Shown: one piece after another, positions 4,739 to 15,611 of the stretch
How the letters are laid out: each line of letters starts with the position of its first letter
Numbering within the stretch: the first letter of the stretch is position 1
Assembly (NCBI RefSeq): GCF_900109665.1
Contig: NZ_FOAO01000002.1
Coordinates: 248,001 to 312,000, forward strand
Direction: 5' to 3'
Length of the DNA stretch: 64,000 nt
Origin: Blastococcus sp. DSM 46786
GTDB taxonomy: Bacteria > Actinomycetota > Actinomycetes > Mycobacteriales > Geodermatophilaceae
Notes under the pieces: model-generated
Database searches by the model: none
What the model was told of the DNA's origin: nothing
What the model saw: only the letters and a program-made list of their open reading frames with translations
Position numbers and translations under genes: made by a program

Positions 4739-5067
4739 TGTTCCACGTCACCTCGTCCTCGAACCGCGCGTCGATCCTGGAACACGGGCTCGACTGGCGC
4801 CGGATGGGGACAGCCCCGGGCATCGCGGGCAGCCCGGCGCCCGAGCAGGAGGGGTGCTTCCTCGCTCCCGACGAATGGACGGCGGACTGGTTCGTCGACA
4901 TGAACAACACCGGCGGCCCGGTCGACGTCTGGGTCGTAGAGGGGGTCGACCCGGCCGACCTGGTGACCTCCGGGGAGGGATACGACTACTTCCCGGGCGT
5001 CATCCCAGCCGATCGCCTCCGGCTGGTTCGTGCAGACGTCCCACCGGTCGACGACCGAGCGTTCTAG
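4738..5067 (+). CDS. Small protein resembling the ADP-ribosyltransferase (ART/Tpt1) fold
   Basis: A 109-residue protein whose N-terminus FHVTSSSNRASILEHGLDW, followed by EGCFLAPDEW and later VDVWVVEGVDPADLV, is laid out like small ART-fold proteins: a His-containing first strand, a helix entered by SI..HGL, then an F-L strand with a following helix. An NAD-binding role is inference from this pattern; I cannot confirm catalytic residues. Its ATG overlaps the stop of the LuxR regulator, implying coupled translation and a shared process. It has no signal peptide or membrane helix. Its TAG stop lies inside CTAG, shared with the stop of the opposing helicase gene. Confidence 0.5.
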   Translation: MFHVTSSSNRASILEHGLDWRRMGTAPGIAGSPAPEQEGCFLAPDEWTADWFVDMNNTGGPVDVWVVEGVDPADLVTSGEGYDYFPGVIPADRLRLVRADVPPVDDRAF

Positions 5068-6839
5068 AGCATCGTGCGGAGGCGCTCCCGGCGGGCACGC
5101 AGCACGTCGACCGACGCCGACGCCGACGGCGGACCGGGCACCTGCTGGCGCAGCTGGCTGTGCACCACCGCCTGCGGCTGGGAGGTGCGCGCCGCCACGC
5201 GGTTGACCAGCTTGTTGATCTCTCGGCGCAGCTCGGCGGCGTCGCGCCACGAGCGGCCGGCGTCGTCCTCGTCCGGGTGATCCTCGACGACCATGAAGTC
5301 GTCGGCGTCGTTCCGGTGGCTCTGCGCGATGCGCAGCCGCAGCTCGTCGTCCCGCTTGGCCAGCAACGACGCCGTCTGCTCGGGCGTGAGCAGGCCCGGG
5401 ATGCCGAGGAAGTCCTCCTCCTCGGGGGCGACGACGGTGGCCGGCCGGCCCTCACCGGTGTGCGCCGTCCCGCCGTGCAGCACGTGCGCGAAGCGGGCGT
5501 CGGCCTCCAGCGCCTCCCACTGCTTCATCTCGCCCTCCCGCGGCTCCCGGGGCGGCAGGTCGAGCGCCTCGAGCTCCTCCTCCGGCTGGCTCCGGGGCGG
5601 CGGCATGACGTGGTTGCGCTGCTCCTCCATCGAGGCGGCCAGCGACAGCAGTGGGCGGACGGCGGGCAGGAACACCGTCGCCGATTCGTGCGACGCCCGG
5701 GAGCGGACGACGCGGCCGACGGCCTGGGCGAAGAACAGCGGCGTCCGGTAGGAGGTCATCCACGCGAGGACGGCGGCGCGCGGGACGTCGACGCCCTCGG
5801 AGATCATGCGGACGCAGACGGCGATGCGGGCCGAGCCGGTCGCGAACCGCTCGATCTTCTTCGACGCCTTCGGGTCGTCCGAGAGGATCAGCTCCGGCGC
5901 CTTGCCGGTCACCCGCCGCACGATCTTGGCGTAGTCGCGGGCGTCGTCCTGGTCGCTGGCGAGGATCAGCCCGGCGGCGTCGGGCATGCCGCCCTCCTCG
6001 CGCAGGTGGGTGATCCGGTCGTCCATCGCGGCGATGACGTGCGGCACCCACTGGCCCTTGGGGTCCAGGGCGGTGCGCCAGGCCTGCATCTCCACCGACC
6101 TGGTGCCGGCTTCGCTCAGCGACGCGGCGACCACCTCGCCCGCGGAGTTCCGCCAGCGGGAGGTGCCGGTGTAGGCGGCGAAGACGACCGGGCGGACGAC
6201 GTTGTCGGCCAGCGCCTCCTTGTAGCCGTAGGTGTAGTCGGCGCGGCTGACCAGGCCGCCGGCCTCGCCCTCGAAGGTGTCCTCCTCGTACCGGACGAAG
6301 GGGATGCGCTCGTCGGGCTTGGTGCGGAACGGCGTCCCGGTGAGGCAGAGCCGGCGGGCGGCCATGCCGTACGCCTCCTCGACGGCCTCGCCCCAGGAGA
6401 GCCCGTCGCCGGCGTGGTGCACCTCGTCGAGGATGACCAGCGACTTGACGGCGGTGGCGCGGGCGGCGTGCAGCATCGGCTTGCCCGCCACCTGCGCGTA
6501 CGTCGTGACGTAGCCCTGGGTGCCGGCGCGGACCGGGCCGACGGCGTTGGTCAGGTTCGGGTCGAGGACGATGCCCATCGCGTCGGCTGCCTCGGCCCAC
6601 TGCAGCCGCAGGTGGTCGGTCGGGGCGACGACGATCACGCGGGCGACCTCCCGCCGCGACAGCAGCCGGGCTGCCAGCGTCAGGGCGAAGGTCGTCTTCC
6701 CGGCGCCCGGCGTAGCGGTGACCAGGAAGTCCTTGGGGGATGCCTCCTCGTACTGGCCGAGGGCGGCCTGCTGCCATGCCCGGAGCGGTCGGCTGGTCGT
6801 CTGCGGGGCCCGGGCCGCCGCTGCTGCTGCAGTCGCCAT
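5064..6839 (-). CDS. DEAH-box SF2 helicase
   Basis: A 591-residue superfamily 2 helicase. Motif I is TATPGAGKTTF at 41-51, motif Ia VVAPTDHLRLQW, motif II DEVH at 138-141, motif III-like TGTP near 170, and motif VI QAVGRVVRSR near 410. After the RecA-like domains comes a roughly 150-residue charged C-terminus of unknown role. It likely remodels DNA or RNA; the partner is unknown. I chose the ATG at 6839 because CAGAAT at 6855-6850 on the minus strand fits a -10 box giving a very short leader. An ATG at 6851 is in frame but overlaps that box. The gene converges on the ART-like gene with stops sharing CTAG. Confidence 0.8.
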   Translation of the reverse strand: MATAAAAAARAPQTTSRPLRAWQQAALGQYEEASPKDFLVTATPGAGKTTFALTLAARLLSRREVARVIVVAPTDHLRLQWAEAADAMGIVLDPNLTNAVGPVRAGTQGYVTTYAQVAGKPMLHAARATAVKSLVILDEVHHAGDGLSWGEAVEEAYGMAARRLCLTGTPFRTKPDERIPFVRYEEDTFEGEAGGLVSRADYTYGYKEALADNVVRPVVFAAYTGTSRWRNSAGEVVAASLSEAGTRSVEMQAWRTALDPKGQWVPHVIAAMDDRITHLREEGGMPDAAGLILASDQDDARDYAKIVRRVTGKAPELILSDDPKASKKIERFATGSARIAVCVRMISEGVDVPRAAVLAWMTSYRTPLFFAQAVGRVVRSRASHESATVFLPAVRPLLSLAASMEEQRNHVMPPPRSQPEEELEALDLPPREPREGEMKQWEALEADARFAHVLHGGTAHTGEGRPATVVAPEEEDFLGIPGLLTPEQTASLLAKRDDELRLRIAQSHRNDADDFMVVEDHPDEDDAGRSWRDAAELRREINKLVNRVAARTSQPQAVVHSQLRQQVPGPPSASASVDVLRARRERLRTML

Positions 6840-7075
6840 GTCGGGGCCCATTCTGATCGGCGGCCGGGCAACACGCCCAACGGGGGCTTCCCGCGCGCCA
6901 CCGCCGTCGGGACGTATGGCGACCTGTCGCCGAGCCTCTGACCAGGGTGTTTGCCGACGCCGTCCGGCCGCTGTGGCGATCGTCATGGCCGGAACGGACC
7001 GGCTCGTCACTCCCGCCGGCCCCGGTGATCCCAGGCGTCCCCGGCTGCATCGCGACGGCTTGACAGACTCCGCCG

Positions 7076-7615
7076 GTGCCCCCGCTGCGCTGGCTGACCG
7101 ACCCGGACCACGTGACCCCGCGGATGCGGGCACACCTGGTCACCTGCTGGCGGGACGTGGTCAACGGCGGCGGAGCGGTCGGCTTCGCCCGGCAGGTGCC
7201 GGTGGACGACGACGTCGTCGCGCCGGTCGTCGACCACCTGGTCGACGGCCTCGACCCGCGGCTGCGCCGGCTCCTCGTCGCGCAGCACGAGGGCGGGCTC
7301 GCCGGCTGGCTGGTGCTGACGGGGAACGTCGACCCGGTCGCCGCGCACTGGGGCCGGGTGACGCACGTGCAGACGTCGCCGGCCGCCCGGGGGTGTGGGG
7401 TGGGTGGCGCGTTGATGGGCGAGGTGGCGCGGGCGGCGCGCGACGACCTCGGCCTGGACTCGCTGCGGCTCGAGGTGCGCGGCGGGATGGGGCTGGAGTC
7501 CTTCTACGGGCGGTACGGGTGGGTCGTCACCGGTCGCTGGCCCGGTGCGCTGCAGATCGCCCCGGAAGACCGGCGGGACGAGGTGCTGATGGGGCTGGAC
7601 CTGCGGTGGGGCTGA
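7076..7615 (+). CDS. GNAT-family N-acetyltransferase
   Basis: A 179-residue GNAT enzyme that transfers acetyl from acetyl-CoA to an unknown amine. The acetyl-CoA-binding motif A is seen as VQTSPAARGCGVGGALM at about 102-118, and the C-terminal strand motif as LESFYGRYGWVVTGRWPG. Length is normal for a single-domain GNAT. The start is GTG at 7076; a TTGACA sequence at 7060 is too close to act as its -35 box. It is followed after 38 bp by the SOS-box HNH gene on the same strand, but the SOS box suggests that gene has its own promoter. Confidence 0.75.
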   Translation: MPPLRWLTDPDHVTPRMRAHLVTCWRDVVNGGGAVGFARQVPVDDDVVAPVVDHLVDGLDPRLRRLLVAQHEGGLAGWLVLTGNVDPVAAHWGRVTHVQTSPAARGCGVGGALMGEVARAARDDLGLDSLRLEVRGGMGLESFYGRYGWVVTGRWPGALQIAPEDRRDEVLMGLDLRWG

Positions 7616-7634
7616 GATCCAGAAATGTCGGTGA

Positions 7635-7650
7635 TCGAACGTATGTTCGA
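7635..7650 (+). promoter_or_regulatory. LexA/SOS box, perfect match to the actinobacterial consensus
   Basis: The 16-mer TCGAACGTATGTTCGA is a perfect TCGAAC-N4-GTTCGA palindrome, the SOS box defined for Mycobacterium and close relatives. The flanking A at 7634 and T at 7651 extend the symmetry to 18 bp. It ends 3 bases before the HNH gene start at 7654, a position where bound LexA would block transcription initiation or early elongation. Confidence 0.85.
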
Positions 7651-7653
7651 TGC

Positions 7654-9735
7654 ATGGCGGAGAGGGTGCGGGCGGACGACGCCGATGCCGGTGCACCGGC
7701 GGCCGGGTGGGCGTCGGGCCCGCTCGGCGCGGTCCAGGCCGCCGACCGGGAGATCGCCCGGCAGACGGCGCTGCGGGCCCGGGCGATCGCCGATTTCGCC
7801 GCCACCCGGCCCTCCTCCGCGGACCGGCAGCCCGGCGAGCCGGGTGCCATGAGCGCCGACCGCCGGGCCTCGCGCGCGGAGGTGCTGTCCAGAGTCAGCG
7901 AGTGGGCGACGCACGAGCTTTCCCTCGCCCTGTCCCGCACCTCCCAGTCGGCGGAGGCGCTGCTCACCCGGTCCCTCACGCTCGTGCACCGGTTGCCGCA
8001 GACGCTGGACGCCCTCGAGGCGGGGGCGCTCCACGACGGTCACCTGTGGCCGATGCTCGGCACCGTCGCGCCGATCGCCGACGACAGGATCCGGGCCGAG
8101 GTGGAGGCCGAGCTGCTCGCCTGGGCCGCCCGCCGGGTCACCACCCCGGCGCAGCTGGGTGACAAGGCGCGCCGGGTCGTGCTCCGGCGGGACGCCCGGG
8201 ACGCCGCCGGCCGGCTGACCCGTGCCCTCCGCGAGCGCGGCGTCTCCGTCCGGCCCGGTGCTGCCGACGGGACGGCCGTGCTGAGCGCGCTGCTCTCCGT
8301 GCCGGAGGCACAGGCGCTCCTCGACGCGCTGGGCCGGTACGCCGACGCCCTCGAGCCCACCCCCGACGACCGGCGCACCCGTGGGCAGAAGATGGCCGAC
8401 TGCCTGCTCGACCTGGTGCTTCGGCCGGGGGAGAACGGCCTCCCGCCCGTGCAGGCGCAGCTCACCCTGGTGGCCGGTGTGCGCACCGTGCTGGGTGGCG
8501 ACCAGCCGGGGGAGATCAACGGCCAGGTGGTGCCGGCCGAGATGGTGCGGGCTCTCGCCCGCGCGCTGGGCCTCCTGCCCGACCCCGCGGCACCGGCACC
8601 GGCACCGGCACCCACGGAGCCGGACGAGACCGCGCCGCCGGACGCGACCGCGGAGCCGCCCGCAGCCGAGGAGCCGGACGAGACCTGGTCGCCCGGCACC
8701 CGCCCACCGGACGCGTGGGAAGAGGAAGCCCTCGCCGACTGGTGGGCCGCCACCGAGGCGCGGGTGCTGGAGGAGTGGGGTGGTGCGGAGGACCCGCCAC
8801 CCGAGGAGCAAGCCCGGTTCTGGGAGAAAGCGGCCCGCTGGGAGGCGATGCCGGCCGCGGTGGACGTCCTCCCGTGGCTGGACCCTGCCTGGACCGCGGA
8901 CGACGACCCGTGGTCGGAGCCCGGTCCCGAGCGGGGCTCCGGCCCTGCGCCCGCCGGCGCACCGACGCCCGACCTCCGGCCCAGCCCTGCCCTCGCCGAC
9001 GCGCCTGGGCTCGGGTCCTGGGCGGTGGCCGACCGTGCGGTCGAAGCCGCGGGAGCTGTCCTGCTCGAACTGGAGCGGGCGGTGGGGCAGGCGAGAGGTG
9101 CGGTGGCGGCCGCTGAGGTGGCTGACGCGGAGGACGAATCCGCCTGGCAGATGAGCGCGGAAGGGCGGTCGTCCTCGGCCTGTGACGCGCTCACCGCACT
9201 CGGAGCCGCGACGCAGGCTCATCGCACCGCACTCGCCGAGCTGCTCGGCCGGACCGGTGGCGGTGGGCTGGTCGACCGCCCGCGGATCGCCCTCGTCGAC
9301 GAGCTGACGGGCGCACTGGTGGCGCTCACCGACGCCGATGAACTCCGCCGGCGGTCCCGGTGCGAGGCCGGCGCCTGCCGGCGGGACCCGGCCCGCTGCA
9401 CCCACGACCTGAGCGCCCTGCCCGGCCTCGGCGCTCCGCCGCCGACCGACGGGTACCGGCCAGGCGCCCGGCTCGACCGGTTCCTGCGGGCCCGCGACCG
9501 TCGGTGCCGGTTCGCCGGCTGCCGCCGGCCGGTACCCCGGGGCGGCGAGCTGGATCACGACCGGCCCTGGCCCGAAGGGGAGACGAGTGCGGCGAACCTG
9601 GTCGGCTACTGCACCCCGCACCACCGCGGCAAGCACCAGGCGCCGGGGTGGCAGCACGAGCTGGCCGACGACGGCACGCTCACCGTGACCACCCCCAGCG
9701 GTTTGGTGGCTTCGACGTCCCCGCCGCCGTTCTGA
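7654..9735 (+). CDS. DUF222/HNH endonuclease-domain protein (13E12 type), SOS-controlled
   Basis: A 693-residue protein with a helical DUF222 domain (about 1-300, including LSLALSRTSQSAEALLTRSL and RTRGQKMADCLLDLVL), a long Pro/Ala/acidic linker (about 310-430), and a C-terminal HNH nuclease. The nuclease region reads DRFLRARDRRCRFAGCRR, GELDHDRPW, and CTPHHRGKHQ, which supplies the Cys and His residues of a beta-beta-alpha metal finger. Members of the mycobacterial REP13E12 family share this layout and several are DNA-damage induced. The ATG at 7654 follows the SOS box directly, so the mRNA has little or no leader. The next gene, a PIN-like protein, starts 34 bp downstream and may be co-transcribed. 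Confidence 0.85.
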   Translation: MAERVRADDADAGAPAAGWASGPLGAVQAADREIARQTALRARAIADFAATRPSSADRQPGEPGAMSADRRASRAEVLSRVSEWATHELSLALSRTSQSAEALLTRSLTLVHRLPQTLDALEAGALHDGHLWPMLGTVAPIADDRIRAEVEAELLAWAARRVTTPAQLGDKARRVVLRRDARDAAGRLTRALRERGVSVRPGAADGTAVLSALLSVPEAQALLDALGRYADALEPTPDDRRTRGQKMADCLLDLVLRPGENGLPPVQAQLTLVAGVRTVLGGDQPGEINGQVVPAEMVRALARALGLLPDPAAPAPAPAPTEPDETAPPDATAEPPAAEEPDETWSPGTRPPDAWEEEALADWWAATEARVLEEWGGAEDPPPEEQARFWEKAARWEAMPAAVDVLPWLDPAWTADDDPWSEPGPERGSGPAPAGAPTPDLRPSPALADAPGLGSWAVADRAVEAAGAVLLELERAVGQARGAVAAAEVADAEDESAWQMSAEGRSSSACDALTALGAATQAHRTALAELLGRTGGGGLVDRPRIALVDELTGALVALTDADELRRRSRCEAGACRRDPARCTHDLSALPGLGAPPPTDGYRPGARLDRFLRARDRRCRFAGCRRPVPRGGELDHDRPWPEGETSAANLVGYCTPHHRGKHQAPGWQHELADDGTLTVTTPSGLVASTSPPPF

Positions 9736-10186: not shown

Positions 10187-11872
10187 TCAGTCGGCCGGCT
10201 CGTCCACCCAGTCGGGGCCGTTGACCTCACCCGGGCCGGCCAGGTCGGCGGCGTCGACGATCGTGTAGGCGTAGCCCTGCTCGGCGAGGAAGCGCTGCCG
10301 GTGGGCGGCGTACTCGCTGTCGAGGGTGTCGCGGCTGACCACGGTGTAGAAGTGCGCCTGCCGCCCGTCGGCCTTGGGCCGCAGCACCCGGCCGAGCCGC
10401 TGCGCCTCCTCCTGGCGCGACCCGAACGTCCCCGACACCTGCACCGCGACCGCGGCCTCGGGCAGGTCGATGGAGAAGTTCGCGACCTTCGAGACGACGA
10501 GGGTCTTGATCTCCCCGACCCGGAAGGCCTGGAACAGCCGCTCCCGCTCCTTGTTCGTCGTCGACCCCTGGATCACCGGGGCGTCGAGCGCCTCACCCAG
10601 CGCCTCGAGCTGGTCGAGGTAGGCGCCGATGACCAGCTTCTGCTCGTCGGGGTGCCGGTCGAGCACTCGGCGGATCACCGGCAGCTTCGACGTCGCGGTC
10701 GCCGCGATCCGGTAGCGCTCCTCGGGTTCGGCGACGGCGTAGGTCATCCGCTCCTCGTCGTCGAGCGCGACCCGCACCTCCACGCACTCGGCCGGCGCGA
10801 TGTAGCCCTGCTGCTCGATGTCCTTCCACGGGGCGTCGTAGCGCTTGGGCCCGATGAGCGAGAAGACGTCGTCCTCCCGCCCGTCCTCGCGCACGAGCGT
10901 CGCGGTCAACCCCAGCCGGCGGCGGGACTGCAGGTCGGCGGTCAGCCGGAAGATCGGCGCGGGCAGCAGGTGGACCTCGTCGTAGACGATCAGGCCCCAG
11001 TCCTGTGCGTCGAAGAGGTCCAGGTGCCGGTACTCGCCCTTCCGGCGGGTGGTGATCACCTGGTAGGTCGCGATGGTGACCGGCCGGATCTCCTTGCGCT
11101 CGCCGGAGTACTCGCCGATCTCCTCATCGGTCAGCGTCGTGCGCGCGATCAGCTCGCGCTTCCACTGCCGCCCCGAGACGGTGTTGGTCACCAGGATCAG
11201 CGTGGTCGCCTTCGCCTCGGCCATCGCCGCGGCGCCGACCAGCGTCTTGCCCGCACCGCAGGGCAGCACGACGACGCCCGAGCCGCCGGCCCAGAAGCCG
11301 TCCACGGCCTCCTGCTGGTAGTCCCGCAGCTGCCAGCTGTCCTGCTCCAGGAAGATCGGGTGCGCCTGCCCGTCGACGTAGCCGGCGAGGTCCTCGGCCG
11401 GCCAGCCGATCTTGAGCAGCGCCTGCTTGAGCCGGCCACGCTCCGAGGGGTGGACGACGACGCTGTCGGCGTCGATCCGGGCGCCCAGCATCGGGGCGAC
11501 CTTCTTGGACCGGACGACCTCCTCCAGCACCGCCCGGTCGGTGGAGCTCAGCACCAGCCCGTGCACCGGGTCGTTCTGCAGGGTCAGCCGGCCGAAGCGG
11601 TCCATCGTGTCGGCGACGTCGACCAGCAGCGCGTGCGGCACGGGGTAGCGCGAGTAGCGCACCAGGGCGTCGACGACCTGCTCGGCGTCGTGCCCGGCGG
11701 CGCGCGCGTTCCACAGCGCCAGCGGCGTCACGCGGTAGGTGTGCACGTGCTCGGGGGAGCGCTCCAGCTCCGCGAAGGGCGCGATCGCGGCGCGGCAGTC
11801 ACGGGCCAGCGGGTGGTCGACCTCGAGCAGCAGGGTCTTGTCCGACTGGACGATCAGGGGGCCGTCAGGCAC
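10187..11872 (-). CDS. xpb: XPB-type DNA repair helicase
   Basis: A 561-residue SF2 helicase of the bacterial XPB family (Mycobacterium tuberculosis Rv0861c type). An N-terminal XPB-type domain precedes the helicase core: Walker A GAGKT at 206-210, DEVH at 298-301, LGLTATLVRED near 320-330 with the RED motif of XPB, and a C-terminal QVSGTFGSRQEEAQRLGRVLRPK motif VI. In archaea and eukaryotes XPB unwinds DNA in nucleotide excision repair; the bacterial role is likely repair. The GTG at 11872 has GGAGAG 9 bases upstream; an upstream ATG is out of frame. Its usual partner gene (Helicase_C_3 protein) lies 930 bp upstream on the same strand, split from it by two small genes. Confidence 0.9.
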   Translation of the reverse strand: MPDGPLIVQSDKTLLLEVDHPLARDCRAAIAPFAELERSPEHVHTYRVTPLALWNARAAGHDAEQVVDALVRYSRYPVPHALLVDVADTMDRFGRLTLQNDPVHGLVLSSTDRAVLEEVVRSKKVAPMLGARIDADSVVVHPSERGRLKQALLKIGWPAEDLAGYVDGQAHPIFLEQDSWQLRDYQQEAVDGFWAGGSGVVVLPCGAGKTLVGAAAMAEAKATTLILVTNTVSGRQWKRELIARTTLTDEEIGEYSGERKEIRPVTIATYQVITTRRKGEYRHLDLFDAQDWGLIVYDEVHLLPAPIFRLTADLQSRRRLGLTATLVREDGREDDVFSLIGPKRYDAPWKDIEQQGYIAPAECVEVRVALDDEERMTYAVAEPEERYRIAATATSKLPVIRRVLDRHPDEQKLVIGAYLDQLEALGEALDAPVIQGSTTNKERERLFQAFRVGEIKTLVVSKVANFSIDLPEAAVAVQVSGTFGSRQEEAQRLGRVLRPKADGRQAHFYTVVSRDTLDSEYAAHRQRFLAEQGYAYTIVDAADLAGPGEVNGPDWVDEPAD

Positions 11873-12802: not shown

Positions 12803-15046
12803 TCAGCTCGCGTCGTCCTCCACCAGGGCCACCGACGTGATGCGGTGGACGGCGAAGGTGCGGCTCTCCCCGCGTCGCTCGTCGTAGCCCTGCAGGAAGC
12901 CCCCGGCCAGCGAGACCGGCTGCACCACGCGCTGGCTGCCGCTGCCCTGGGCGTCCACGTACCCCAGCCACACCGGCACACCCTCCCGGACCGCCCGTGA
13001 CAAGAGCTCCAGCGTCGACGCCGTCGTCACCCCGGGCACCTGGCGCACCGCCTCGCCGCGGCGTGCGGCGAGGGCCGCGTCACCGGCACGGATCTCCCGC
13101 ACCGTCGTGTCCAGGTCGGCCCCGCTCAGCGGTCGCGGCGCGGACGGCGGCTCGGCGCCGCGGCGGCCGGCGGCGCGCGGCCGGGCCGGCGGCCGGGTGA
13201 GCACCGCCCCGCCCGGGTGCTCGCCGGCCGGGGCGTAACCGGCCTCGCGCAGCACGGTGAGCACCTCGTCGGCGCCCAGCCCGCTGACGAGCACCCCCGG
13301 GGCCAGCCGGCGCAGCTCGGCGGCCGCGGTGCGCCGGTCGCCGAGCACCTGGGAGAGCAGCCCGTGGTCGTCGGAGCGCACGTAGGACTCGATCGACCCC
13401 ACCCGCAGCCGCCCGTGCTGGCGAGCCACGTCGTCGACCAGGTAGTCCAGCGCCTGGGGGACCGGGGTGCGGGACGCCTTCGCGAAGAAGTCGTGCAGGT
13501 CCGGCGCCGACCAGCCTGCGTCCAGCGCCCGGCGGACCGAGGGCTCCGACACCCGGAACACCGTCGCCCCGCCGGAGGACTCGACGTCGGCGACGACCGA
13601 GAGGGTGTCGGCCAGGTCGGCGACCAGCGGCCCCGGGGCGATCAGCGAGAGGTCCGGCTGGGCGAGCACGTGGTCGACCGGCTCGGGCAGCAGCCCGCGC
13701 ACGCCGTCGGCGGCGCCGTCCTCCCCGGTGGCGAGCAGCCCGCGGCCGCCGGTGGAGGGCACCCCGCCCACGAGCACGCCCAGCCGCGCGGCCTCGGCCA
13801 GCATGTCGGGCACCGGCGCCAGCCGGTCGGCCCGGCGCGGGGTGCGCCAGCGCAGCAGCGCGACGAGCTCGTCGGGCGGCAGCCCGGAACCCGGCGGCAG
13901 CTCGGCGAGCACGGCCAGCGCCGACCGGCGGATCGCCGGCGCGGTGTGCCGCACCAGGTCGGGGGAGAGCGGGTTGGCGGCCTTGCCGGCCACATCGCGC
14001 ACGCCCACCAGGGAGGGCAACCGGACGGCGCCCAGCCACCCGGCGGCCAGCACCGCCCAGCGGTCGGCGAGGTCCTGTTCCCGCCAGACGTCGTAGGCGC
14101 GGGTGGGCAGCCACTCGTCGCGGTGCGGCCCGCCGACGTCGAGCAGCCCGGCGGCGTGCGCCAGCTCCAGCAGCCAGGCGGCGTCGGGCTCGGCCACCTT
14201 GAGCGTCTTGGCCAGCCGCTTCTGGTCGCGGACGCCCACCCCGCCGCTGCGCAGCAGCCCGGCCGCCTCCTCCTCCAGCAGCGCCAGCAGCTCGCCGACC
14301 CGCCCGACCTGCTCCAGCGCCGCACCGGCGGACTGCCGGTCCACCGCCTGCGGGTCGCGCGTCACCGGAGCGGGCTCCGGCCGCCGCCGCGGCGGTCCGT
14401 AGGGCCGGTCGCCGCGCAGCAGCAGCCCCAGCTCGCGGGGGAGCTCGACGTTCAGCGCGTCGATGCGGGCCAGCAGGCCCCGCTGCAGCAGCCGCCGCGC
14501 CGGGGTGGCCCCGCCGTTCGGCGCCTCGGGGAGGTGCCCGACCGGGCGGTCGCCGGCCAGCCGCTCCAGGACGGCGCGCTCCTCGGGATCCAGCTCGGCG
14601 ACGGCGGCGGGCAGGTCCGCGGGCAGCTGCAGCCGCAGGTCGACCGCCCGGCGGCCCAGCCCGGCGGGGTGCCGGACGGCGCGGCGCACCGGGTCGGGGG
14701 CGTGCAGGACGTCGTCGCCCCACAGCAGCGCCTGCGTGGTGAGCGCCTCGACGGCGGCCTCGACCACCTCGTCGGGCACCTCCGGCAGCGCGGCGACCAG
14801 CGCGTCGGGCGGCATCCCGTCGGTGGGCGCCAGCAGGACGGCGTCGAGCACCTGCAGCGTCGCGGCGTCGAGCTCGTCGAGGGCGCGGTCGACCGACACC
14901 GGGACGGCGAGCCGGCTGGCCAGCGCGACGACGTCGGAGGGGGCGGGGCGGGCGACGTCGGGCCGGGCCGCCAGCAACGCGCGCAGCTGCTCGTCGCTGC
15001 GGGTGCGCAACCAGGCGGCGAGCGTCGCAGGGGCTTCCGTGGACAT
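12803..15046 (-). CDS. Helicase_C_3 / XPB-associated domain protein
   Basis: A 747-residue protein of the helicase-associated family found beside XPB in actinobacteria (M. tuberculosis Rv0862c type). It opens with LAAWLRTRSDEQLRALLAARPD, continues with winged-helix-like repeats (LDELDAATLQVLDAVLLAP), and ends with VWLGYVDAQGSGSQRVVQPVSL and a WYL-like beta domain (GYDERRGESRTFAVHRI). It has no Walker motifs of its own, so it is not an active helicase and probably acts with DNA or XPB. The ATG at 15046 (MSTEAPATL) has GGAACGG just upstream. In this genome the XPB gene is downstream on the same strand but no longer adjacent. Confidence 0.8.
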   Translation of the reverse strand: MSTEAPATLAAWLRTRSDEQLRALLAARPDVARPAPSDVVALASRLAVPVSVDRALDELDAATLQVLDAVLLAPTDGMPPDALVAALPEVPDEVVEAAVEALTTQALLWGDDVLHAPDPVRRAVRHPAGLGRRAVDLRLQLPADLPAAVAELDPEERAVLERLAGDRPVGHLPEAPNGGATPARRLLQRGLLARIDALNVELPRELGLLLRGDRPYGPPRRRPEPAPVTRDPQAVDRQSAGAALEQVGRVGELLALLEEEAAGLLRSGGVGVRDQKRLAKTLKVAEPDAAWLLELAHAAGLLDVGGPHRDEWLPTRAYDVWREQDLADRWAVLAAGWLGAVRLPSLVGVRDVAGKAANPLSPDLVRHTAPAIRRSALAVLAELPPGSGLPPDELVALLRWRTPRRADRLAPVPDMLAEAARLGVLVGGVPSTGGRGLLATGEDGAADGVRGLLPEPVDHVLAQPDLSLIAPGPLVADLADTLSVVADVESSGGATVFRVSEPSVRRALDAGWSAPDLHDFFAKASRTPVPQALDYLVDDVARQHGRLRVGSIESYVRSDDHGLLSQVLGDRRTAAAELRRLAPGVLVSGLGADEVLTVLREAGYAPAGEHPGGAVLTRPPARPRAAGRRGAEPPSAPRPLSGADLDTTVREIRAGDAALAARRGEAVRQVPGVTTASTLELLSRAVREGVPVWLGYVDAQGSGSQRVVQPVSLAGGFLQGYDERRGESRTFAVHRITSVALVEDDAS

Positions 15047-15098
15047 CCGTTCCACGCTACGTCGCCGTCCCCGCGGACGCTGCTGCCAGCATGGGCCC

Positions 15099-15611
15099 AT
15101 GCACCCCGCGAGTGACGACCCCGCCACCCGGACCGCCCTGGCCGCCCTCCAGGTCGGGGCGCTGCGCTGGCTGGGCGGCGGCGCCATCGCCGTCGTCCTC
15201 GGCGTCCTGCTCGGCCTCGCCACCGTGACGTTGGCCGGGGAGGACGGCCGGCGGGTGCCCGGTGCCGGGCTCGCCGTCCTCGCCCTCGTCCTCGGCGGGC
15301 TGGCCGCCGTCGTCGTCGGCGCCGGCGCGTTGCTGCGCACCCGCCGCTGGCGGCGGGCGCTGGCCGGCACCACGTGGCGCACGGGGCAGCTCTACGTCGC
15401 CGGGCCCGCGGTGCTCTCCTTCGAGCCCGACGGCGGGGACGACGCCGTGCACCTGCGGCTGCTGAGCACCGCGATCTGGCGCACCCGCGCGGTGCAGGCC
15501 CTCGACGGGGCCGGCGTGCTCGCCGCACCGGTCGGGCCCGGGCAGTGGGTGTTCACCGCCGAGGGAGCGGGCACCCTCTACGGGGCCCGCGTCACCGCTC
15601 GCGGGCGCTGA
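15099..15611 (+). CDS. Hypothetical two-helix membrane protein
   Basis: A 170-residue protein with two predicted membrane helices at about 24-46 and 56-78, after a short cytoplasmic start ([12 protein letters not shown]). A soluble region of about 90 residues follows, with mixed strands such as [20 protein letters not shown] and [21 protein letters not shown] do not recognise the family. The start ATG at 15099 is the first in frame near the beginning of coding character. The gene is divergent from the Helicase_C_3 gene, so the 52-bp gap must hold both promoters. Confidence 0.6.

Follow-up and report, generated by a model that had tools for sequence, protein, structure and literature searches.

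Genes and features at the locus

The DUF222 gene described here lies in a 64,000-nucleotide stretch of the genome of Blastococcus sp. DSM 46786 (the window), where a GNAT acetyltransferase gene, the DUF222 gene, and a small ORF form a block flanked by two helicase genes, one SF2 (ResIII/DEAD) and one XPB/ERCC3-like (Table 1). A large protein combining Helicase_C_3 and WYL domains is encoded near the XPB-like gene. Immediately upstream of the DUF222 gene, an exact match to the mycobacterial PafBC promoter motif and an exact SOS box are packed into one 25-bp stretch.

Table 1. Features of the DUF222 locus, in window coordinates
Feature	Position	Strand	Remarks
Helicase genes bounding the GNAT/DUF222/small-ORF block	5067-7133, 10190-11872	-	
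GNAT acetyltransferase gene	7076-7615	+	neighbor, outside the promoter; ends 10 bp before the -26 element
PafBC/RecA-NDp-type promoter motif TGTCGG-N10-TATGTT (-26 element and -10)	7626-7647	+	exact match to the motif of PMC8151990
SOS box (LexA operator) TCGAACGTATGTTCGA	7635-7650	.	exact match to TCGAAC-N4-GTTCGA
-10 hexamer TATGTT	7642-7647	+	corresponds to TANNNT in the PafBC motif; lies in the right half of the SOS box
DUF222-HNH protein P0001, 693 aa	7654-9735	+	ORF; its start at 7654 is predicted to be leaderless
Large protein with Helicase_C_3 and WYL domains	12806-15382	-	near the XPB-like gene

The two sites are superimposed rather than adjacent. The PafBC motif reads TGTCGG-TGATCGAACG-TATGTT, the SOS box starts 9 bp past the start of this motif so as to cover the -10 hexamer, and the promoter has no TTG -35 element at 16 to 18 bp. 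With the ATG 6 nt past the -10, the mRNA is predicted to be leaderless; this distance falls in the range of 6 to 7 nt that we used to predict leaderless genes.

Relationship of the SOS box to the LexA sites of the genome

A preliminary description of this DNA had placed a perfect SOS box right before a DUF222-HNH gene, and the box is indeed exact. It is part of ATCGAACGTATGTTCGAT (positions 7634 to 7651), in which two inverted arms of 7 bp each flank a nonpalindromic GTAT, and it agrees with the SOS box given as TCGAAC(N)4GTTCGA, with a longer form MKWMTCGAAMRYWTGTTCGA, in the accessible part of an earlier study (PMC4181829). The exact box occurs once in the window, with no second match at 0 to 1 mismatch, and relaxing the search to two mismatches yields 8 matches versus 1.44 expected from shuffles. 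From its base composition, 0.0006 exact matches would be expected in the window and 0.045 in the genome; the whole genome contains 6, as well as 37 boxes with at most one mismatch versus 4 for the reversed pattern. These shuffle, base-composition, and reversed-pattern counts rule out chance as the source of the box.

As the preliminary description had recognized, the LexA reading turns on the genome's own lexA and recA. Both genes, identified by Pfam, carry a TCGAAC-type box with one mismatch, which rules out a different box upstream of them. Three one-mismatch boxes lie between the region of lexA encoding the LexA DNA-binding domain and a divergent LysM gene, and the one-mismatch box TCGAACAGGTGTTCGG lies upstream of recA. 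A box with one mismatch is also found at ruvC, and another SOS box is found at a DUF6504 gene adjoining a DnaE-type polymerase gene. The boxes of these four genes identify the motif, as far as sequence tells, as the LexA box of this organism, and the site upstream of the DUF222 gene is accordingly classed as a putative LexA/SOS operator matching those of lexA and recA.

Two further sites of this genome are of note. Locus L034 (G000:C34:51174-51189) is an exact SOS box at the center of a long inverted repeat, possibly a terminator or a mobile-element structure and not an operator, and locus L029 (G000:C31:19937) is a one-mismatch box where an ORF begins that has a weak, below-cutoff intein match.

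A superimposed PafBC motif

In mycobacteria, PafB binds the -26 motif and PafBC is positioned between promoter DNA and sigma domain 4, which normally contacts the -35 element; single-stranded DNA activates PafBC, whereupon the housekeeping sigma factor uses -26 promoters (PMC11804915, available part). The corresponding motif has been given as TGTCGG-N10-TANNNT (PMC8151990, available part). That this definition is mycobacterial weighs against the PafBC reading in Blastococcus; the window promoter conforms to TGTCRG-N10-TANNNT on the strand of the gene and is a candidate member of the PafBC regulon. The preliminary description was right about the SOS box and overlooked this second motif lying across it.

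The genome as a whole contains 23 matches to TGTCRG-N10-TANNNT versus 2 for the reversed pattern. Contig C31 carries a Pup-ligase gene, 1.2 kb farther on a gene for a WYL and WCX domain protein, and adjacent to this a second WYL gene; this set fits pafA and pafBC, with orthology judged from the arrangement of the genes. At the genome's own recA, the PafBC motif is a separate site whose first base comes 75 bp after that of the recA SOS box. This is comparable to mycobacterial recA, whose PafBC and LexA promoters, P1 and P2, lie apart (PMC5656591, available part), whereas the window promoter carries both sites in one.

A variant -26 hexamer, TGTCGT, occurs upstream of several DUF222 genes (contigs C11, C24, C16, and C33 of this genome, G000, and locus L079). 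It is a form outside the three named in the available part of PMC8151990, and on C33 it occurs without an SOS box.

Recurrence in the genome and in Geodermatophilaceae

Eight DUF222 genes or gene fragments of this genome have their 5' end on a contig, and seven of these carry the box with at most one mismatch, the exception being the C33 copy; one of the seven, on C16, was recognized as a DUF222 copy only by its 90% DNA identity to the copy on C10. Among relatives from Geodermatophilaceae, which were found by protein similarity and not by the box, we retained the 60 of 80 loci with a match near the N terminus and with upstream DNA. The SOS box is present at up to one mismatch in 51 of these 60, the background expectation for an interval of equal length being 0.004.

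The composite itself, searched as TGTCRG-N3-TCGAAC-N-TA-N3-TCGA, gave 32 matches in 23 of 112 Geodermatophilaceae genomes and none when reversed. All 30 of the 32 that were examined precede an ORF matching the profile of the nuclease family, some of these ORFs being cut by the contig end or broken, and in 28 of the 30 a start codon lies 6 to 7 nt after the -10.

DUF222 genes outside Geodermatophilaceae

DUF222 is present in 27 of 60 genomes sampled across the phylum and in 49 of 60 across the class. From outside the family, we assembled 113 genes in two sets: 53 that are the best-scoring match of their genome, mostly one each (53 of 55 loci, those with 300 bp of upstream DNA), and 60 chosen by hand, following table order, in 14 genomes that had many or strong matches, paralogs included. 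The SOS box at up to one mismatch precedes 58 of the 113 (19/53 and 39/60 in the two sets), and the PafBC motif, as TGTC[AG][GC]-N10-TANNNT, precedes 45 (24/53 and 21/60). Either motif is found at 81 genes (35/53 and 46/60) and both at 22 (8/53 and 14/60).

Several controls indicate the background of these counts. At the thresholds used, the reversed SOS and reversed PafBC motifs each occur at 0 of the 113 genes; the reversed SOS pattern at up to two mismatches occurs at 1 of the 53, and the PafBC motif on the opposite strand occurs at 2 of the 113 (2/53 and 0/60). Sequence far from the genes of the first set gives rates per 330 bp of 0.003 for PafBC and 0.006 for SOS. TetR genes from a comparable draw of 60 genomes across the phylum (30 loci, 2 of them at contig edges) have neither motif, with 0 of 30 for each. 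Binomial tail probabilities presuppose independent loci, an assumption that paralogs break, and are given no weight here.

The preliminary description had proposed that damage control of these nucleases extends beyond mycobacteria. At the level of sites this is supported, and well beyond mycobacteria, by the relatives within Geodermatophilaceae and by the DUF222 genes outside it, with the addition that many of the latter have a PafBC motif instead of an SOS box. SOS control is not universal in DUF222 genes, the box being absent in 55 of the 113. Running against the rule, 32 genes have neither motif, and in some genomes hardly any of the sampled genes have one (G031, 0 of 4; G193, 1 of 5).

The spacing of the two sites where they co-occur is nonrandom. 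Counted from the first base of the PafBC motif, the SOS box starts 9 to 10 bp downstream in 6 of the 22 genes with both, 21 bp downstream in 12, and 23 bp downstream in 3, and it lies upstream in 1, which places the box mostly either on the -10 or just past it, on the start site. A slightly wider search interval yields 46 PafBC-bearing genes; 37 of them have an in-frame start 6 to 7 nt past the -10, and 39 have one 4 to 10 nt past it, versus 11% expected by chance for the latter range. The 7 loci with no in-frame start in that range are L162, L177, L225, L226, L231, L235, and L239; at L225 and L231 an ATG farther downstream is preceded by a purine-rich stretch, and a leaderless start is hence not the rule for every gene.

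Outside Geodermatophilaceae, the exact composite is seldom seen, occurring in one further genome among 395. This is locus L240 (G428:C2:394607-394631), where the start lies 7 nt past the -10 and opens a 231-aa ORF that, by eye, resembles an alpha/beta hydrolase and not DUF222. Its presence before another type of ORF rules out the composite as exclusive to DUF222 genes.

Exchange of -35 and -26 promoter forms

We built a tree of the P0001 family from 34 of 39 candidate rows, leaving out 5 shorter than 250 aa, and compared it with the promoter forms. The PafBC-SOS composite is found in 11 rows and a TGTCGT near match to it in 1; in 16 rows the same SOS box goes with a TTG -35 element at 16 to 18 bp, 4 rows have the box but no -26 element and no TTG, and 2 lack a box. 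When the 4 box-only and 2 boxless rows are left out, the PafBC and TTG states require two changes on the tree. The C42 paralog of this very genome has the TTG form and is nested, together with L136, in a mainly composite clade; with the composite in the window, both promoter forms are therefore present in one genome. Since this is a quick tree with open forks, the direction of the exchange is not read from it.

Predicted double gating of the promoter

On the basis of these observations, the region from 7626 to 7654 is quite probably a composite, double-gated damage promoter operating as an AND gate that opens when LexA is off and PafBC is on, so that the nuclease gene appears to be switched on only upon DNA damage by means of overlapping repressor and activator sites. 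RNA polymerase with the housekeeping sigma factor would need PafBC, activated by single-stranded DNA and bound at the -26 TGTCGG, in a sigma adaptation like that of mycobacteria. LexA on the SOS box would hide both -10 and start site and give way once RecA-single-stranded DNA filaments trigger its self-cleavage. As both locks would sense single-stranded DNA, the gene is expected to be nearly silent in healthy cells and to come on when damage frees the LexA site and activates PafBC. Transcription would then begin at the A of the ATG or an adjacent base, giving a leaderless mRNA for the predicted DUF222-HNH endonuclease.

An alternative is that LexA controls the gene without any other regulator and that TGTCGG, a leftover or a coincidence, goes unused by PafBC in this genus. 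The related paralogs with a TTG -35 element and an SOS box and no -26 element, including C42, point in this direction. The -26 hexamer is, however, held in register in all 32 composites, its motif is enriched 23 to 2 over the reversed pattern in this genome, and it recurs at DUF222 genes outside the family (45/113); we hence regard this alternative as unlikely. It is highly improbable that the promoter is driven by PafBC with the SOS-box DNA kept for another cause, for example, an ArsR-type repressor with a similar site: the likeness of ArsR and LexA sites has been noted (PMC8151990, available part) and an ArsR-family protein binds an HNH nuclease promoter in Mycobacterium smegmatis (PMC9416677, available part), but the one-mismatch box also stands at the genome's own lexA, recA, and ruvC.

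The DUF222-HNH protein and its spread

The preliminary assignment of P0001 to the DUF222-HNH type is borne out for DUF222, and for HNH it stays tentative. The Pfam DUF222 profile (PF02720) matches P0001 at 38.3 bits versus a cutoff of 24.4 and matches 17 of the 18 members of the alignment. Pfam has no HNH match in P0001, the HNH region of which falls below Pfam detection, and PF01844 (HNH) matches weakly in 2 of the 18 family members, with a best E value of 0.013. D634, H635, N648, C653, H657, and H661 are nevertheless invariant in the 18-row alignment, in an HNH-type pattern read by eye. The nearest named proteins are from Blastococcus, and one relative is named "13E12 repeat family protein"; we take 13E12 and DUF222 to be one family. 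P0001 has no match in PADLOC (0 families) or NCBIfam, and a search for homologues of solved structure returned one match only, with an E value of 0.9.

In two pairs of paralogs, the shared stretch comprises the promoter and the ORF and nothing beyond. In genome G067, two copies are 97.9% identical over a stretch that begins 34 bp ahead of the -26 element and runs through the final base of the stop codon; outside the promoter and ORF, the 8 kb compared contain no match. Likewise, the match between the copies on C21 and C24 of the Blastococcus genome begins about 60 bp upstream of the box and ends within 4 bp of the stop codon. In the box-aligned identity profile, the 30 composites were picked by motif and values at the motif are partly given by construction, so we use only the fading outside it: paralogs of G204, G180, G016, and G222 are alike at the promoter and reach background within about 30 to 120 bp upstream, and those of G038 and G215 show little likeness beyond the box itself on either side. 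The number of family matches per genome ranges from 0 to at least 31, and some contain stops.

Both flanks of the window copy are colinear in 7 of the 9 relatives compared, which suggests that it does not jump often. The content of the gap between the two helicase genes differs among genomes of the genus, with a family member in 6 of 15 loci and none in 9; these come from 15 of 23 genus genomes chosen from flank matches and are not a random sample. The shared promoter and ORF and the variable gap fit dispersal as a unit of promoter plus ORF, which is not proof of mobility. P0001 is most likely a damage-induced endonuclease of a dispersing family that duplicates as promoter plus ORF, and its role may lie in repair, in selfish spread, or in cell killing.

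Two readings of this role, both compatible with the proposed double gating, deserve consideration. That the genes are selfish cassettes of promoter plus ORF, taking damage and recombination as their cue and bringing no repair benefit to the host, is plausible, if short of probable. The near-identical G067 pair, the ends of the C21 and C24 matches, the widely varying and partly broken copies, and a window locus filled in some members of the genus and empty in others would all suit it, whereas the colinearity of the window copy and the lack of clear likeness beside the box in the G038 and G215 paralogs speak against it. A damage-triggered suicide or antiphage effector, which would explain the double lock, appears unlikely. 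Double gating would befit a toxic product, and an overproduced HNH nuclease of M. smegmatis, which may belong to another family, cuts the chromosome and kills the cell; yet only one of the five HNH proteins overproduced was lethal (PMC9416677, available part), P0001 lacks a PADLOC or NCBIfam match, and tens of copies per genome are in our judgment unusual for a suicide gene. More speculatively, and less likely than not, the DUF222-HNH genes could be phylum-wide selfish cassettes that have captured the LexA/RecA and PafBC sensors of their hosts, so that the nuclease would be made only amid breaks and recombination and the copying of the cassette would be tied to host repair.

Relationship to known systems and implications

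LexA control of 13E12 genes is already known in Mycobacterium tuberculosis, whose LexA regulon includes HNH 13E12 genes, with a suggested role in mismatch repair (PMC4181829, available part). These genes stand under the same SOS box as in Blastococcus; PafBC is not named in the available part of that study, whereas the LexA and PafBC sites are superimposed here. Five putative HNH endonucleases are among the RecA-dependent genes in the available part of PMC8151990, and in the accessible parts of the literature naming PafBC together with "HNH endonuclease," no PafBC sites are placed at such genes. Dual damage control is itself established for recA, uvrA, and uvrC, which are under both PafBC and LexA (PMC8223512, available part); the Blastococcus promoter differs in its fixed-register superposition, its predicted leaderless start, and its association with a multicopy nuclease family. 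Searches of the open-license PMC literature returned no precedent for the composite, for 13E12 with PafBC, or for DUF222 with LexA and SOS, and the PafBC overlay and the phylum-wide pattern are in no paper searched.

The presence of sites for two unrelated regulators at one gene family, singly or jointly, suggests that selection keeps expression limited to damage. In the superimposed site, a repressor and a sigma-adapting activator, both reading single-stranded DNA, would combine into a compact natural AND gate, and the exchange of -35 and -26 forms inside one gene family provides matched natural promoter pairs on which this gate can be tested. The DUF222 family, often present in many copies, thereby becomes a testable part of the actinobacterial damage response.
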